Source: a bacterium
Lineage (GTDB): Bacteria; Pseudomonadota; Gammaproteobacteria; Burkholderiales; Burkholderiaceae_C
Length of the DNA stretch: 64,000 nt
Reading direction: 5' to 3'
Assembly (NCBI GenBank): GCA_030824555.1
Contig: JAVBXK010000049.1
Span: 1-64,000 of the forward strand
The translations under genes were made by a program, and so were the position numbers. Of the stretch, positions 18,605-27,145 are shown in pieces. Every line of letters begins with the position of its first letter. The first letter of the stretch is position 1. Below the pieces are notes generated by a model. That model ran no database searches and was not told the DNA's origin. It worked only from the letters and a program-made list of their open reading frames with translations.

Positions 18605-18697
18605 ACAACAGTGGGTAGGTTGTTTGCGTCAGTTACGAGCAAGAGCTCAAAATCATAATTATGAATTCAGTTCAACCCAATGTGGATGGAGACACTT

Positions 18698-20590
18698 ATG
18701 AGCAGCTATGTCGATTTTTTCCGTCGTTCGATTGATGACCGCGATGGTTTCTGGCGTGAACAAGCCGCACTGATCGACTGGCACAAGCCATTTGATCAGG
18801 TTTGCGACTACACCAATCCGCCTTTCGCCAAGTGGTTTGCCGGCGGTCTCACCAATCTGTGCCATAACGCCGTTGACCGCCATCTGGCCACACGCCCTGA
18901 CCAGAACGCGCTGGTGTTCGTGTCCACCGAAACGAACATTGAAAAGGCCTACAGCTTCCGCGAACTGCATGCAGAAGTGCAGCGCATGGCCGCCATTCTC
19001 AAAGACATGGGTGTGGAAAAGGGCGACCGCGTCCTGATCTATATGCCGATGATTGCCGAGGCCTGTTTTGCCATGCTGGCATGCGCGCGCATCGGTGCCA
19101 TTCACTCCGTGGTGTTTGGTGGGTTTGCCAGCCACGCGTTGGCCAGCCGCATTGAAGATGCCCAACCGAAAGCCATTGTCAGTGCCGATGCGGGCATGCG
19201 TGGTGGCAAAGTGGTGCCATACAAGCACCTGCTGGACGAGGCCATCAACCTGTCGGCACACAAACCCGCAAAAGTCCTGATGGTCAACCGCGGGTTGGCT
19301 GATTTGGCCCCTGTTGCGGGCCGCGACGTGGACTATGCCACCCAGCGTGAACAGAACCTGTCAACCGTTGTCCCGTGCGAATGGGTTGACAGCACGCATC
19401 CCAGCTACATCCTCTACACCAGCGGCACCACGGGCAAGCCAAAGGGTGTGCAGCGTGACACAGCTGGCTATGCGGTGGCACTGGCCGCGTCCATGAAGCA
19501 CATCTACATGGGCAACCCCGGCGAGACCTACTTCTCGACCAGCGACATCGGCTGGGTCGTGGGCCACAGCTACATCATTTATGGCCCGCTGATCAACGGC
19601 ATGGCCACCATCATGTACGAGGGCTTGCCCATTCGCCCTGATGCAGGTGTCTGGTGGAGCTTGGTCGAAAAATACAAGGTCAGCGTCATGTTCAGCGCGC
19701 CGACTGCGGCACGTGTTCTCAAGAAGCAAGACCCCGCTTTCCTCACCAAATACGACCTGTCCAGCCTGAAGGCCTTGTTCCTGGCCGGCGAGCCACTGGA
19801 CGAGCCCACTGCCACCTGGATTGGTGGTGCGCTGAACAAGCCCATCATCGACAACTACTGGCAAACCGAAACCGGTTGGCCCATCATGGCCATTTGCAAC
19901 GGTGTGGAAGCCGCACCCACCAAGTTCGGCTCGCCGGGCAAGGCTGTGTATGGCTTCGATGTGCGTCTGATCGACGAGGTCACCGGTGAAGAAATCACCG
20001 AGGCCAACAAGAAGGGCGTGATCGCCGTGAATGGCCCTCTGCCGCCCGGTTGCCTGCAAACCATTTGGGGTGACGATGCGCGCTACGTCAAGACCTACTG
20101 GTCCAGCATCCACAACAAGGTCATGTACAGCACCTTTGACTGGGGCGTGAAGGATGAAGACGGTTACTTCTTCATCCTGGGCCGCACGGACGATGTGATC
20201 AACGTGGCTGGGCACCGCCTGGGTACACGTGAAATCGAAGAAAGCATCTCCAGCCACCCCAATGTGGCCGAGGTGGCCGTGGTCGGTGTGGCCGACCAAC
20301 TCAAAGGCCAGGTAGCTGTGGCGTTCGCTGTGCTTAAAGACCCGTCGCAAGCTTCCACCGATGCCGATGTGCTGAAACTGGAAGCTGCCATCATGAAGGT
20401 GGTGGACGAACAGTTGGGTGCCGTGGCCCGCCCGGCACGGGTGCGGTTTGTCTCCGTGCTGCCCAAAACCCGTAGCGGCAAACTGCTGCGTCGTGCGATT
20501 CAGGCCGTGTGCGAGGGGCGCGATGCGGGTGACCTCACCACCATGGAAGATCCCGCAGCCCTGCAGCAGATCAAAGATCTGGTTCAATAA
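18698..20590 (+). CDS. prpE: Propionate--CoA ligase
   Basis: Acyl-CoA synthetase motifs YTSGTTGKPKGVQRD, WWSLVEKYKVSVMFSAPTAARVLKK, LGTREIEE, TRSGKLLRR. Confidence 0.92.
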   Translation: MSSYVDFFRRSIDDRDGFWREQAALIDWHKPFDQVCDYTNPPFAKWFAGGLTNLCHNAVDRHLATRPDQNALVFVSTETNIEKAYSFRELHAEVQRMAAILKDMGVEKGDRVLIYMPMIAEACFAMLACARIGAIHSVVFGGFASHALASRIEDAQPKAIVSADAGMRGGKVVPYKHLLDEAINLSAHKPAKVLMVNRGLADLAPVAGRDVDYATQREQNLSTVVPCEWVDSTHPSYILYTSGTTGKPKGVQRDTAGYAVALAASMKHIYMGNPGETYFSTSDIGWVVGHSYIIYGPLINGMATIMYEGLPIRPDAGVWWSLVEKYKVSVMFSAPTAARVLKKQDPAFLTKYDLSSLKALFLAGEPLDEPTATWIGGALNKPIIDNYWQTETGWPIMAICNGVEAAPTKFGSPGKAVYGFDVRLIDEVTGEEITEANKKGVIAVNGPLPPGCLQTIWGDDARYVKTYWSSIHNKVMYSTFDWGVKDEDGYFFILGRTDDVINVAGHRLGTREIEESISSHPNVAEVAVVGVADQLKGQVAVAFAVLKDPSQASTDADVLKLEAAIMKVVDEQLGAVARPARVRFVSVLPKTRSGKLLRRAIQAVCEGRDAGDLTTMEDPAALQQIKDLVQ

Positions 20591-20611
20591 CTGAATTTAT
20601 AAATAAAAATG

Positions 20612-20650
20612 GCGCCCACCGCTTGTACTGCAAGTGGTGGGCGCTTTGTT
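20612..20650 (+). terminator. Intrinsic terminator after prpE
   Basis: GCGCCCACCGCTTG-TACTG-CAAGTGGTGGGCGC (14-bp stem with one G:T) followed by TTTGTTTTT. Confidence 0.9.
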
Positions 20651-20732
20651 TTTGATAGTTGCTACCTGTTTGGCAGGGCATTCAAATCATCGCTATGATG
20701 CTTGCTTATATATGTAATGGCGACGTACCGAC

Positions 20733-21110
20733 ATGACTGAAACAAGCGAAACCGGTCACGACCAGACAGCAAAAGGGCGTGTCTTCGAACTGGCTGCCGA
20801 ACTGTTTGGTGTGCTGGCCACCCCGATGCGGTTGCGCATCCTGAGTGCGTTGTGCGACCAGGAAAAATCCGTGTCGCAGTTGCTGAGTGAAATTGAAACC
20901 ACTCAGCCCAACTTGTCCCAACATCTGAATGTGCTTTACCGCACTGGCGTACTGGCCAAGCGCAAAGAAGGTACCCAGGTGATTTACCGGGTGCAAAGTG
21001 AGCAGGCCGTGTCACTGTGCAGAACGGTGTGCACACAAATTGCCATCGAGATGGATGAGCCCGGCAGCGTCCCGGCTGCCCAGCGCCTCTCCCCGCGCAT
21101 GGCGGGTTGA
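20733..21110 (+). CDS. ArsR-family transcriptional regulator (BigR/SqrR-like)
   Basis: LFGVLATPMRLRILSALCDQEKSVSQLLSEIETTQPNLSQHLNVLYRTGVL winged helix; C-terminal LCRTVCTQ. Confidence 0.88.
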   Translation: MTETSETGHDQTAKGRVFELAAELFGVLATPMRLRILSALCDQEKSVSQLLSEIETTQPNLSQHLNVLYRTGVLAKRKEGTQVIYRVQSEQAVSLCRTVCTQIAIEMDEPGSVPAAQRLSPRMAG

Positions 21111-21203
21111 TGGATTTGATTGCCAATTTCCAGGGGCTGCCAAACCCCCGCCGGAGACTGACAAATCCCTGACCATTTGGATGCGCACAACAGAAGCAGG
21201 CGC

Positions 21204-21251
21204 CGCACCAAAGTAAATAAATTAGTCGTCAAAATGACGCACTTTGGTGCG
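21204..21251. repeat. Nested inverted repeat upstream of sucA
   Basis: Outer CGCACCAAAGT (21204-21214) / ACTTTGGTGCG (21241-21251), inner CGTCA-AAA-TGACG (21227-21239). Confidence 0.85.
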
Positions 21252-21290
21252 ACAATCCCGGCGCACTTGGCCCTTCCTGTCACTGTCGCA

Positions 21291-21362
21291 TCCGCAAAAC
21301 GGTACAGCCGTGTACGCGGAAGGTTTATCAACCAGCTAATGTTTCCCAGAGGGGAACGGAGG
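21291..21362 (+). ncRNA. Candidate structured 5' leader of sucA (possible Burkholderiales sucA RNA motif)
   Basis: TCCGC...GCGGA helix with inner ACGG/CCGT; GTTTCCC-AGA-GGGGAAC hairpin (21341-21357) abutting SD GGAGG (21358-21362); position directly upstream of sucA in Burkholderiales. Confidence 0.55.
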
Positions 21363-21373
21363 TCAGCGAATCA

Positions 21374-24250
21374 ATGAGCGAGACAAACAACGTTTACGGT
21401 GCCTTTAAAGGTAACTCGTATCTTTTCGGCGGCAACGCCCCGTATGTCGAAGAGATGTACGAGAACTACCTGGCCAATCCAGGCAGCGTTCCCGATACAT
21501 GGCGCAGCTACTTCGATGCGCTGCAGCATGTCCCCGCAGTCGATGGCACCGATGCACGCGATGTGCCTCACATGCCTGTCATCAGCGCGTTCGCAGAACG
21601 GGCGAAGCAGGGCCGGACGCAGGTCGTCATGGCCAATGCCGATTCTGAAATGGGGCGGAAGCGCGTCGCCACCCAACAGCTGATTGCGGCTTACCGCAAC
21701 GTCGGTGCTCGCTGGGCCAACCTGGATCCGCTGAAGCGTACCGAGCGGGATCACATCCCTGAACTCGACCCCGCTTTCTACGGCTTCACCGATGCCGATC
21801 TGGAAACCGTGTTCAACACCAGCAACACGTTTTTCGGCAAGGACACCATGTCCCTGCGCGAACTGCTGAATGCCTTGCGTGAAACATACTGCGGTACGCT
21901 GGCTGCCGAGTACATGTACACCACCGACCAGAACCAGAAACGCTGGTGGCAGCAAAAGCTTGAAAGCATTCGCAGCAAACCCAATTTCTCCGCCGATAAG
22001 AAGCAGCACATCCTGAACCGCCTGACCGCGGCCGAAGGTCTGGAACGTTTCCTGCACACCAAGTACGTTGGGCAGAAGCGCTTCTCCCTGGAGGGGGGTG
22101 AAAGTTTCATCGCTGCAATGGACGAGCTGATCCAGTCAGCCGGTGCCAAGGGCGTGCAGGAAATCGTCATCGGCATGGCCCACCGTGGCCGGTTGAACGT
22201 ATTGGTCAACACCATGGGCAAGATGCCCAAGGATTTGTTTGCCGAGTTCGACCACACTGCGCCCGAAGACCTGCCAGCTGGTGATGTGAAGTATCACCAG
22301 GGCTTCAGCTCTGATGTGTCCACCCCTGGCGGCCCGGTTCACCTCACGTTGGCATTCAACCCGTCACACCTTGAAATCGTCAACCCCGTCGTCGAAGGCT
22401 CGGTGCGTGCACGCATGGACCGCCGTGGCGACAAGCGTGGCGACCAGGTGCTGCCCGTGCTGGTGCACGGCGACGCTGCATTCGGTGGCCAAGGCGTCAA
22501 CCAGGAAACGCTGTGTCTGGCACAGACCCGCGGTTACACCACCGGTGGAACGGTTCACCTGATCATCAACAACCAGATCGGCTTCACGACCTCTGACCCA
22601 CGCGACATGCGTTCCAGTGCGTTCTGTACCGACATCGTGAAGATGGTCGAGTCGCCCGTGCTGCACGTCAACGGTGACGACCCAGAAGCCGTGGTGCTGG
22701 CTACCCAGCTGGCACTTGAATTCCGCATGGAATTCCGCCAGGACGTGGTGGTCGATATCACCTGTTTCCGCAAACTGGGCCACAACGAGCAGGACACGCC
22801 TGCACTGACCCAACCGCTGATGTACAAGAAAATCGCGGCGCACCCTGGCACGCGCAAACTGTACGCAGAGAAGCTGGCTGTTCAGGGTATGGGCGACACG
22901 CTGGGCGATGACATGTTCAAGGCCTACCGTGCGGCCATGGACGCGGGTGAGCACACCGTTGACCCGGTACTGAGCAACTTCAAGAGCAAGTACGCGGTCG
23001 ATTGGTCACCATTCCTGTCCAAGAAGTGGACTGACGGTGGCGACACAGGCATTCCCATGGCTGAATGGAAGCGCCTGGCCGAGAAGATCACCACGATTCC
23101 CTCCACCGTCACCGCTCACCAACTGGTGAAAAAGGTCTATGACGACCGTGCTGCCATGGGCCGTGGCGACACGCCAGTGGACTGGGGCATGGGCGAGCAC
23201 ATGGCGTTCGCCTCTCTGGTGGCCAGCGGCTACCCTGTGCGGTTGTCCGGTGAAGACTGCGGCCGTGGCACGTTCACACACCGCCACGCCGTGATTCACG
23301 ACCAAAGCCGCGAGAAATGGGACACGGGTACCTACGTTGCGTTGCAAAACGTGTCGGAAGGCCAGGCACCGTTCGTGGTCATCGACTCCATCCTGTCTGA
23401 AGAGGCTGTGTTGGGCTTTGAATACGGTTACGCATCGAACGACCCCAACACGTTGGTGATTTGGGAAGCGCAGTTTGGCGATTTCGCCAACGGCGCTCAG
23501 GTGGTGATCGACCAGTTCATCGCTTCCGGGGAAGTGAAGTGGGGCCGTGTCAATGGCATCACGCTGATGCTGCCGCACGGCTATGAAGGCCAGGGCCCTG
23601 AGCACTCGTCTGCTCGCCTGGAGCGCTTCATGCAGTTGGCCGCCGACACCAACATGCAGATCGTGCAGCCCACAACGGCCAGCCAGATCTTCCACGTGTT
23701 GCGTCGTCAGATGGTGCGCAACCTGCGCAAGCCACTGGTCATCATGACGCCCAAGTCGCTGCTGCGGAACAAGGATGCCACGTCACCCCTGTCCGAGTTT
23801 GTCCGTGGTTCCTTCCAGACCGTGATCTCCGAGTCACGCGAAGAAGTGAACAAAAAGGCAGACAAGGTCAAACGCGTGATCGTCTGTTCCGGCAAGGTGT
23901 ATTACGACCTGGTCAAGAAGCGCGAAGAAAAAGGTGCGGACGACGTGGCCATCCTGCGCGTTGAACAGCTCTATCCCTTCCCGCACAAGGTGTTCGCTGC
24001 CGAGTTGAAAAAGTACCCGAACGCGACCGACATCGTGTGGTGCCAGGATGAGCCACAGAACCAGGGCGCTTGGTTCTTCGTGCAGCATTACATCCACGAA
24101 AACATGCTGGATGGCCAGAAGCTGGGTTACTCCGGTCGGGCGGCTTCGGCTTCTCCTGCCGTGGGCTATTCACACCTGCACCAGGATCAGCAAAAAGCGT
24201 TGGTCGAAGGCGCTTTCAGCAAGCTCAAGGGCTTTGTTCTGAGCAAGTAA
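21374..24250 (+). CDS. sucA: 2-oxoglutarate dehydrogenase E1 component
   Basis: 958 aa; SYLFGGNAPYVEEMYENYLANPGSVPDTWRSYFDAL; GMAHRGRLNVLVN; HLTLAFNPSHLEIVNPVVEGSVRAR. Confidence 0.98.
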   Translation: MSETNNVYGAFKGNSYLFGGNAPYVEEMYENYLANPGSVPDTWRSYFDALQHVPAVDGTDARDVPHMPVISAFAERAKQGRTQVVMANADSEMGRKRVATQQLIAAYRNVGARWANLDPLKRTERDHIPELDPAFYGFTDADLETVFNTSNTFFGKDTMSLRELLNALRETYCGTLAAEYMYTTDQNQKRWWQQKLESIRSKPNFSADKKQHILNRLTAAEGLERFLHTKYVGQKRFSLEGGESFIAAMDELIQSAGAKGVQEIVIGMAHRGRLNVLVNTMGKMPKDLFAEFDHTAPEDLPAGDVKYHQGFSSDVSTPGGPVHLTLAFNPSHLEIVNPVVEGSVRARMDRRGDKRGDQVLPVLVHGDAAFGGQGVNQETLCLAQTRGYTTGGTVHLIINNQIGFTTSDPRDMRSSAFCTDIVKMVESPVLHVNGDDPEAVVLATQLALEFRMEFRQDVVVDITCFRKLGHNEQDTPALTQPLMYKKIAAHPGTRKLYAEKLAVQGMGDTLGDDMFKAYRAAMDAGEHTVDPVLSNFKSKYAVDWSPFLSKKWTDGGDTGIPMAEWKRLAEKITTIPSTVTAHQLVKKVYDDRAAMGRGDTPVDWGMGEHMAFASLVASGYPVRLSGEDCGRGTFTHRHAVIHDQSREKWDTGTYVALQNVSEGQAPFVVIDSILSEEAVLGFEYGYASNDPNTLVIWEAQFGDFANGAQVVIDQFIASGEVKWGRVNGITLMLPHGYEGQGPEHSSARLERFMQLAADTNMQIVQPTTASQIFHVLRRQMVRNLRKPLVIMTPKSLLRNKDATSPLSEFVRGSFQTVISESREEVNKKADKVKRVIVCSGKVYYDLVKKREEKGADDVAILRVEQLYPFPHKVFAAELKKYPNATDIVWCQDEPQNQGAWFFVQHYIHENMLDGQKLGYSGRAASASPAVGYSHLHQDQQKALVEGAFSKLKGFVLSK

Positions 24251-24322
24251 TCCACACCCAGCGGCAACGGCGCAAGGAGCGTGTCGTTGCCGCTGCAGCA
24301 TGAAGAATTGAAGGATCAAAAA

Positions 24323-25591
24323 ATGGCAATCGTAGAAGTCAAGGTTCCGCAACTGTCCGAGTCCGTCGCTGAAGCCACGTTGCTTCAGTGGAAGAAAAAG
24401 CCCGGCGACATGGTTGCGGCCGATGAAATCCTGATCGAGATCGAAACCGACAAGGTCGTTCTCGAAGTGCCCGCACCGTCAGCTGGTGTGCTGGCCGAGT
24501 TGGTGGTGGCCGACGGTGGTACCGTTGCGTCCGATCAACTGATCGCACGCATCGACACCGACGGCAAAGGTGCCGCAGCCCCTGCAGCTACCGCTGCGCC
24601 AGCTGCAGCGCCTGCAGCCGCTGCACCTGTGGCTGCCGCCGCAGCCTCCAGCAGCAACAGCATGGCCGGTGTGGCCATGCCCGCAGCGGCCAAACTGATG
24701 GCTGATAACCAGCTGGCATCGGGTTCCGTTGCTGGCACGGGCAAAGATGGCCGCGTCACCAAGGGTGATGTGCTGTCTGCCGTGGCCGCCGGCGCTGCCA
24801 AGCCCGCTGTGGCTGCTGTAGCCATTCCCACAGGTGTGCCCACCAAGGTGCTGCCACAGGTCAGCGGCCCAGCGGCCCCTGATCTGGGCGACCGCCCCGA
24901 GCAGCGTGTGGCCATGACCCGTCTGCGCGCTCGCGTGGCCGAGCGTCTGTTGCAGTCACAGTCCACCAACGCCATCCTGACCACGTTCAACGAAGTGAAC
25001 ATGGCACCTGTGATGGACATGCGCAAGAAGTTCCAGGACAAGTTCGAGAAAGAGCACGGCTGCAAGCTGGGCTTCATGAGCTTCTTCGTCAAGGCTGCTG
25101 TGCACGCCCTGAAGAAATACCCGGTTCTGAACGCGTCGGTCGATGGCAACGACATCGTGTACCACGGCTACTTTGACATCGGTATCGCCGTGGGCTCGCC
25201 CCGTGGCCTGGTGGTGCCCATCCTGCGCAACGCAGACCAGATGAGCTTCGCCGACATCGAGAAGAAGATTGCCGAGTTCGGTCAGAAGGCCAAGGACGGC
25301 AAGCTGGGCATCGAAGAAATGACCGGTGGCACGTTCTCTATCTCCAACGGGGGCACCTTCGGCTCCATGCTGTCAACGCCCATCATCAACCCGCCACAGT
25401 CGGCCATTCTGGGCGTTCACGCCACGAAAGACCGTGCCGTCGTTGAAAACGGCCAAGTGGTGGTGCGTCCGATCAACTACCTTGCCATGAGCTACGACCA
25501 CCGCATCATCGACGGTCGCGAGGCCGTGCTGGGTCTGGTTGCCATGAAGGAAGCGCTGGAAGATCCGTCTCGTCTGCTCTTCGGCATTTGA
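24323..25591 (+). CDS. sucB: Dihydrolipoyllysine succinyltransferase (2-OGDH E2)
   Basis: Lipoyl domain [14 protein letters not shown]; Ala/Pro linker; catalytic [13 protein letters not shown]. Start at ATG 24323 ([15 protein letters not shown]). Confidence 0.97.
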
Positions 25592-25717: not shown

Positions 25718-27145
25718 ATGAGTAAACAATTTGACGTCGTCGTGATCGGTGGCGGTCCTGGCGGCTACATCGCTGCCATTCGCGCAGCCCAGCTGGGTTT
25801 CAACGTCGCCTGTATCGACGAATGGAAAAACGAAAAGGGTGGCCCTGCTCCCGGCGGCACCTGCACCAATGTGGGCTGCATCCCGTCGAAGGCGCTGCTT
25901 CAGTCGTCCGAGCACTTCGACCACGCCAACCACCATTTCGCCGACCATGGCATTTCCACCGGCACGGTGAAGATGGACGTGGCCAAAATGGTGGCCCGCA
26001 AAGACGAGGTGGTGAAGCAGAACAACGACGGCATCCTGTACCTGTTGAAGAAGAACAAGGTCACCTTTTTCCATGGTCGCGGTTCGTTCGTGAAAGCCGT
26101 TGAGGGCGGTTACGAACTCAAGGTGGCTGGTGCTGCAGAAGAAACCGTCGTTGCGAAACAAGTGATCGTTGCCACTGGCTCCAACGCACGCGCACTGCCT
26201 GGCGTGCCGTTTGACGAAGTCAACGTACTGTCTAACGAGGGCGCATTGCGCATCGGTGCCGCCCCCAAAAAACTGGGTGTCATCGGTTCGGGCGTCATTG
26301 GCCTGGAAATGGGCTCTGTGTGGCGTCGCCTGGGTACAGATGTCACCATTCTGGAAGGTTTGCCGACATTCCTGGGGGCAGCCGACGAGCAAATCGCAAA
26401 AGAGGCCAAAAAAGCTTTTGACAAGCAAGGCCTCAAGATTGAATTGGGAGTCCAAGTCGGAGACATCAAGGTTGGCAAGAAGGGCGTCAACGTGGCTTAC
26501 ACCAACGCCAAGGGTGAAGCTCTGGAACTGGCGGTGGACAAGCTCATCGTGTCCATCGGCCGCGTGCCAAATACCATTGGTCTGAATGCTGAAAGCGTGG
26601 GCCTGCAGCTTGATGAGCGCGGCGCCATCGTGGTCGACGGTGACTGCAAAACCAACCTGTCTGGCGTCTGGGCGGTGGGTGATGTGGTCCGTGGCCCCAT
26701 GCTGGCCCACAAGGCCGAGGATGAGGGCGTTGCTGTGGCTGAGCGAATCGCTGGCCAGCACGGGCATGTCAATTTCGCAACCATTCCCTGGGTGATCTAC
26801 ACCAGCCCGGAAATCGCCTGGGTGGGCCGCACTGAGCAGCAGCTCAAAGCCGACGGTGTGAAGTACAAGGCTGGCACCTTCCCTTTCCTGGCCAACGGCC
26901 GTGCGCGTGCGTTGGGTGACACCACCGGGATGGTCAAGTTCCTGGCAGACGCAACCACGGACGAGATCCTTGGTGTGCACATCGTGGGTCCGATGGCCAG
27001 CGAACTGATCTCCGAAGCCGTTGTGGCCATGGAGTTCAAGGCCAGCGCTGAAGACATCGCACGCATCTGCCATGCGCACCCGTCTTTGAGCGAAGCAACC
27101 AAAGAAGCTGCTCTGGCGGTGGACAAGCGCACGCTCAACTTCTGA
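25718..27145 (+). CDS. lpdA: Dihydrolipoyl dehydrogenase
   Basis: [51 protein letters not shown]. Confidence 0.97.

Follow-up and report, generated by a model that had tools for sequence, protein, structure and literature searches.

Genes and RNA motif at the sucA locus

Within the window (the whole 64-kb stretch of DNA analyzed), sucA is followed on the plus strand by sucB and an lpd-type gene, encoding E1, E2, and E3 of the 2-oxoglutarate dehydrogenase complex (Table 1). Upstream of sucA, and in the same direction, are a gene resembling those of acetyl/propionyl-CoA synthetases (18680-20590) and one for a small ArsR-type regulator (20733-21110), and the sucA leader lies between the latter gene and sucA. 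A cmscan search against all of Rfam identified the segment 21286-21368 (+) as the sucA RNA motif RF01070 over its full length (model positions 1-83 of 83), with a score of 80.3 bits (E = 1.2e-13; gathering cut-off 40). This was the sole match at or above the gathering score across the window, and the genome contains one copy of the motif. Model position 5 is missing from this copy, an A is inserted at 21314, and the ATG of sucA at 21374 lies 6 nt past the end of the model. The covariance-model search thus gave the strong match by which the first-pass annotation had proposed to check its naming of the leader, and the name is correct. No match to the sucA-II (RF01758) or sucC (RF01759) motifs was obtained in 20500-22500 at E values up to 1. 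The window RNA is an ordinary member of the known orphan class RF01070.

Table 1. Coordinates of the sucA operon, its leader, and the elements discussed in the text
Feature	Position	Strand	Remarks
Probable sucA -10 box GACAAT	21251..21256	+	G(A/C)ACAAT conserved 10-18 nt before GGCCCTTCC element
GGCCCTTCC element, candidate competing strand	21269..21277	+	Outside Rfam model
P1, 5' strand CGC/3' strand GCG	21287..21289/21366-21368	+	Two-sided changes in 2/3 pairs
P2, UCCGC/GCGGA	21291-21295/21316-21320	+	99% paired; two-sided changes in 4/5 pairs
Stem inside P2, CGGU/GCCG	21300-21303/21307-21310	+	Part of RF01070
Invariant core GCGGAAGG, P2 3' strand + P3 5' strand	21316..21323	+	Target of upstream element
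P3 hairpin, GGUU/AACC	21322..21333	+	90.7% paired
P4 lower helix, AGCU/GGUC, holds Shine-Dalgarno	21334-21337/21361-21364	+	Changes mostly opposite Shine-Dalgarno
P4 upper helix, GUUUCCC/GGGGAAC	21341-21347/21351-21357	+	Two-sided changes in 7/7 pairs
sucA Shine-Dalgarno GGAGGT	21358..21363	+	Half in P4 internal loop, half in lower P4 helix
sucA, 2-oxoglutarate dehydrogenase E1, 958 aa	21374..24250	+	Pfam PF16870, PF02779, PF00676, PF16078
sucB (E2), downstream gene of operon	24281..25591	+	Pfam PF00198, PF00364, PF02817
lpd-type dihydrolipoamide dehydrogenase (E3)	25718..27145	+	Pfam PF07992, PF02852

The motif is restricted to Burkholderiales. In the family to which the window belongs, 288 of 301 genomes carry it; in two more Burkholderiales families the counts are 134 of 151 and 183 of 200, and another three families also have it. 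A sample of 370 genomes from the class contained 3 with the motif, and all 3 belong to the window's family. To judge by named loci, the families that bear it are Comamonadaceae (Variovorax, Pseudacidovorax, Tepidimonas), Oxalobacteraceae (Massilia, Duganella), Burkholderiaceae (Burkholderia, Cupriavidus, Polynucleobacter), and Alcaligenaceae (Advenella, Candidimonas), and the motif is near-universal in genomes of these types. When the motif was located in relatives by local alignment, 281 of 281 usable loci proved to have a SucA frame on the strand of the motif, starting 65-120 nt downstream of where the motif begins (L126, L152, and L195, where a simple motif locator failed, were left out). 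Two Paraburkholderia loci (L372, L386) hold sucA-like copies that are 53-54% identical to the window SucA and have no leader motif.

Where the motif is present, sucA is usually the first gene of its own transcription unit. Several other betaproteobacteria examined that are without the motif (L349, L353-L357) have sucA directly behind the citrate synthase gene gltA, and gammaproteobacteria without it (L358-L393) have sucA directly behind sdhB. This relationship between motif presence and gene order is a correlation, drawn from tens of genomes. To look for divergent motifs beyond the six families, the sucA leaders of genomes with no Rfam match were also searched with a self-built model, R1. Only L094 (1377-1501; E = 5.6e-4) and L096 (1420-1510; E = 2.3e-3) are likely to be true divergent motifs beyond the reach of Rfam, the latter having P2 UCUAC/GUAGA instead of UCCGC/GCGGA and a replaced inner stem; the search also returned L093, a copy truncated at a contig end.

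Fold of the leader and placement of the Shine-Dalgarno sequence

Folding of the isolated 88-nt segment reproduced the structure given by Rfam, with an energy of -32 kcal/mol (z = -4.07), and none of 200 dinucleotide shuffles was as stable. Two elements that the first-pass annotation had read from the sequence are part of this structure: a TCCGC...GCGGA helix, in which 21291-21295 pairs with 21316-21320, and the hairpin GTTTCCC-AGA-GGGGAAC (21341-21357), which directly abuts the Shine-Dalgarno (SD) sequence GGAGGT (21358-21363). The inner stem had been written as ACGG/CCGT; it is present as CGGT/GCCG, the longer version being the same stem with one additional pair that is peculiar to the window.

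A covariance model was built from 64 relatives, and 100 non-redundant sequences were aligned to it. In this set, 89.4% of cells in the Rfam helices are paired, a percentage that, like those in Table 1, leans towards the structure because the alignment was fitted to it. Compensatory substitutions among the aligned leaders, which had been named as the second check on the proposal, are extensive. Two-sided changes were observed in 18 of 27 pairs (295 cells vs 101 in shuffles, 0/500), and the helix covariation score was 0.295 compared to 0.131 after shuffling (0 of 500 as high), with slid controls at 0.05-0.10. Among the aligned relatives the SD always falls within the 3' strand of lower P4, and the changes in this helix fall mostly on the opposite strand, as expected if the ribosome fixes the SD and its partner adapts.

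The unpaired and junction nucleotides are highly conserved, and the internal loop of P2 would be the best candidate for a ligand pocket. An RNA thermometer or a passive structure, whose hairpins would set a low level of translation or sense temperature with no sensed molecule, could explain why the SD is held in weak helices of 3-4 pairs, but it would have no need for such conservation outside the helices, and we regard this explanation as very unlikely. The strict conservation of the 5' half, for its part, fits protein-sensing and metabolite-sensing alike. In ribosomal-protein leaders, protein binding represses translation, and the junction might similarly be bound by a regulator, for instance a 2-oxoglutarate dehydrogenase subunit, that represses translation with no involvement of a small molecule. 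Autogenous control and a metabolite sensor would account equally well for the association of the motif with one gene in 281 of 281 usable relatives. However, SucA, SucB, and Lpd have no known RNA-binding domain in Pfam, and control by a protein seems to us the less probable of these two options, though it is the strongest of the competing explanations that we considered.

A conserved strand upstream of the motif

The first-pass annotation had also suggested a switch based on an alternative GTAC/GTAC pairing in the first helix. This pairing is found in 1 of 279 leaders, that of the window, where the second GTAC exists owing to the inserted A21314; given its lack of conservation, it was rejected. 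A conserved alternative pairing of another kind is possible between an upstream element and the core GCGGAAGG, which has this exact sequence in 236 of 286 leaders. In the window, CCTTCC (CCUUCC in the RNA) at 21272-21277 is complementary to GGAAGG at 21318-21323, and all 6 pairs between element and core are possible in 106 of 106 leaders folded. The sequence CCTTC followed by C or T occurs upstream of the motif in 91%, 100%, 50%, and 91% of the non-redundant leaders of families f1, f8, f32, and f4, respectively, compared to an expected 3.5-7%. Over these families CCTTC is the most conserved upstream 5-mer, its lowest family frequency being 0.50 and that of the next 5-mer 0.10. Of all 279 leaders, 256 contain a CCTTC-type or YATTYGC-type element, and 23, including the Cupriavidus-type and f18 leaders, have no recognizable element. 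The distance from element to motif varies from 2 to 46 nt, so the element cannot be regarded as a fixed addition to the motif. A 5' UTR of 118 nt is reported for B. cenocepacia (PMC4603805), and counting this length on close Burkholderia relatives places CCUUCC at approximately +8 to +12 of the transcript. Where the element of an f1 leader is 25 nt or more away from the motif (L028 and L040 are examples), the CCUUCC strand and the motif are separated by an additional hairpin, CCCG(U)CCCCUU...AAGGCGGG.

We compared the 35 nt upstream of the motif with each 10-nt motif stretch in 113 non-redundant leaders, using 100 dinucleotide shuffles of the upstream region as the control. The complementarity has a single peak, at the core, where the mean z is -1.2 to -1.3 over five neighboring windows and up to 37% of leaders reach p <= 0.05; elsewhere in the motif, the SD included, z is about 0 to +0.4 nearly throughout. 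When 55 nt of upstream sequence are used, the signal persists in every element-bearing lineage (mean z -1.0 to -2.8), and it is absent from f18 and from f1 leaders that have no element. UAACCU, which by eye resembled an f18 counterpart of the element, was discarded given that f18 has no excess complementarity. The leader of L114 (f1, no Rfam match; approximately 1180-1320) has an unrecognizable P2, and a CCTTCTG upstream faces CAGAAGGTTT with 7-bp complementarity.

Element and core also covary. After collapsing the leaders to 41 distinct element/core combinations, we counted 252 paired cells compared to 239.0 +- 2.2 in shuffled combinations, and 10 two-sided cells compared to 1.9 +- 1.4 (0 of 1000 as high in both cases), counts in which related sequences share events. 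The clearest example is provided by Polynucleobacter-like leaders, in which the core GGAAGG is changed to GGAUGG, GAAUGG, or AGAUGG and the elements read UAUUUGC, UAUUCGC, or CAUUUGC; this clade supplies part of the covariation, and its register was recognized after the complementarity had been seen. Single covarying cases are L323, with core ACAGAAGG opposite AUUUCUG, and L325 (Brachymonas), with core GUGGAAGG opposite CUUUCUAC. Rank tests of each leader's own upstream region against those of other leaders gave mixed results.

The element could instead be a DNA-level signal, such as a promoter discriminator or an operator, that matches the core merely by chance. A -10-like CACAAT precedes it by only 10-18 nt in Comamonadaceae-type leaders, and congeners of the window and other Comamonadaceae-type leaders have G(G)CACAAT or GACAAT at the -10 position. 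A sigma-70 consensus scan detected no promoter and did not pick up the -10 candidate at 21251. An 11-bp inverted repeat also overlaps the -10 box of the window. In Alcaligenaceae-type leaders, however, the promoter-like box is, by eye, some 40-45 nt from the element, and this variable spacing speaks for a role at the RNA level. Moreover, across these varying distances, including the 2-46 nt to the motif, the element stays complementary to the core and covaries with it, and we judge a DNA-level function to be quite unlikely. The inverted repeat itself (CGCACCAAAGT/ACTTTGGTGCG; 21204-21251) is perfect, has its arms 26 nt apart, and ends at the probable -10 box. A similar GCACCAAA...TTTGGTGC repeat occurs in one congener (L002) and not in the other five, suggesting that it is perhaps a recent operator.

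Another explanation is that CCUUCC acts as an anti-Shine-Dalgarno strand that pairs with the SD, or that it pairs with ribosomal or small RNAs, instead of with the core. In a longer version of the window leader, the predicted optimum pairs the element with the SD instead of the core, joining UGGCC and UCC to GGUCA and GGA of the SD; this fold is not unusually stable (z -0.34). Imposing the element:core helix on the window leader lowers the predicted SD accessibility to 0.03, perhaps because the strand of P2 that is freed also reaches the SD. Across the 113 leaders, however, z at the SD is about +0.2 and complementarity is found at the core only, so element:SD pairing was rejected as a general rule. 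Furthermore, the Alcaligenaceae-type elements CCUUCUGC extend their pairing to GCGGAAGG and not to their own SD. Together these observations make an anti-Shine-Dalgarno role unlikely.

Proposed control of sucA translation

Because the 6-8 pairs between element and core take up both the 3' strand of P2 and the 5' strand of P3, they exclude the four-way junction. The aptamer state is predicted to be favored by 2.2-3.3 kcal/mol in f1, f8, and f32, and the alternative state by 0.8 kcal/mol in f4; the two states are thus thermodynamically close, as a switch needs. Predicted SD accessibility in the alternative and aptamer states is 0.41 vs 0.38 in f1 and 0.43 vs 0.29 in f4, and is higher in the alternative state in 34 of 62 f1 leaders and 22 of 29 f4 leaders. 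In the window the difference has the opposite sign, the 0.03 obtained with the imposed helix comparing to 0.51. Across f1, f4, and the window, simple folding therefore does not show the SD to be consistently freed when the alternative pairing forms, and, because the folding model contains no tertiary contacts, these accessibilities neither prove nor disprove control. No terminator-like site was found on the plus strand in 21050-21420, and a terminator-based mechanism (transcription attenuator or leader peptide) was rejected for this reason. In 20 of 33 Alcaligenaceae-type leaders, compared to an expected 2.6%, an AAGGC upstream of the element can sequester it.

These data lead us to favor a model in which the leader is a translational cis-regulator whose folded junction hides the SD and whose upstream strand competes for the core. 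As a cis-acting RF01070 RNA, it would regulate translation of the sucA-sucB-lpd operon. The compact four-way junction of P1, P2, P3, and P4 would hold half of the SD in lower P4 and half in the internal loop, and its stabilization, for which the likeliest agent is a small molecule bound in the conserved internal loop of P2 or the junction, would keep ribosomes off sucA. The pyrimidine-rich CCUUCC near the 5' end of the transcript would pair with the core in a manner mutually exclusive with P2 and P3, and, as a rival strand, would open the junction. Three parts of this model are inferences: that the RNA is a metabolite riboswitch, that folding turns translation off, and that the upstream strand pairs with the core in vivo.

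In translational riboswitches of the SAM-II and preQ1-II type, the aptamer itself contains the Shine-Dalgarno sequence. The SD is part of the conserved fold in the sucA motif as well, but the competing strand of the sucA leader lies 5' of the motif rather than in a 3' expression platform. The sucA-II (RF01758) and sucC (RF01759) motifs are structured cis-regulatory RNA candidates likewise named after suc genes (PMC2864571); they occur in Pseudomonadales and other gammaproteobacteria, lineages different from that of the window. In Enterobacteriaceae, the GlnZ sRNA controls sucA post-transcriptionally in response to nitrogen (PMC9731577). The level of control and the gene are the same, but GlnZ is a trans-acting, Hfq-dependent sRNA, an unrelated RNA from another lineage.

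The sucA motif has been said to 'probably constitute[s] a riboswitch' (PMC4603805), and its ligand has been entered as '?' (PMC3766115); the view of the first-pass annotation that no ligand is established agrees with both sources. Expression of the motif has been followed in Herbaspirillum (PMC7011215), and a predicted 3D model is available (PMC10636060). Our search, which covered mainly open-access literature, found no report of a ligand. According to a 2022 review, no validated riboswitch recognizes CoA or any of its acyl derivatives, among them succinyl-CoA (PMC10043782).

The window RNA shares with RF01070 the helices, the gene, the 83 positions, and an SD inside the motif, whereas the Rfam model does not reach as far as the conserved upstream strand. 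As far as we can tell, this conserved competing strand beyond the Rfam boundaries appears to be new. The functional leader probably exceeds the described motif, with a 5' strand that competes for the core, an expression platform upstream of the aptamer, and, in Alcaligenaceae-type leaders, an AAGGC that would add a chain of mutually exclusive pairings. Probing constructs that end at the Rfam boundary would miss the upstream strand, and constructs that include it would give ligand screens a concrete switch model that can be mutated.
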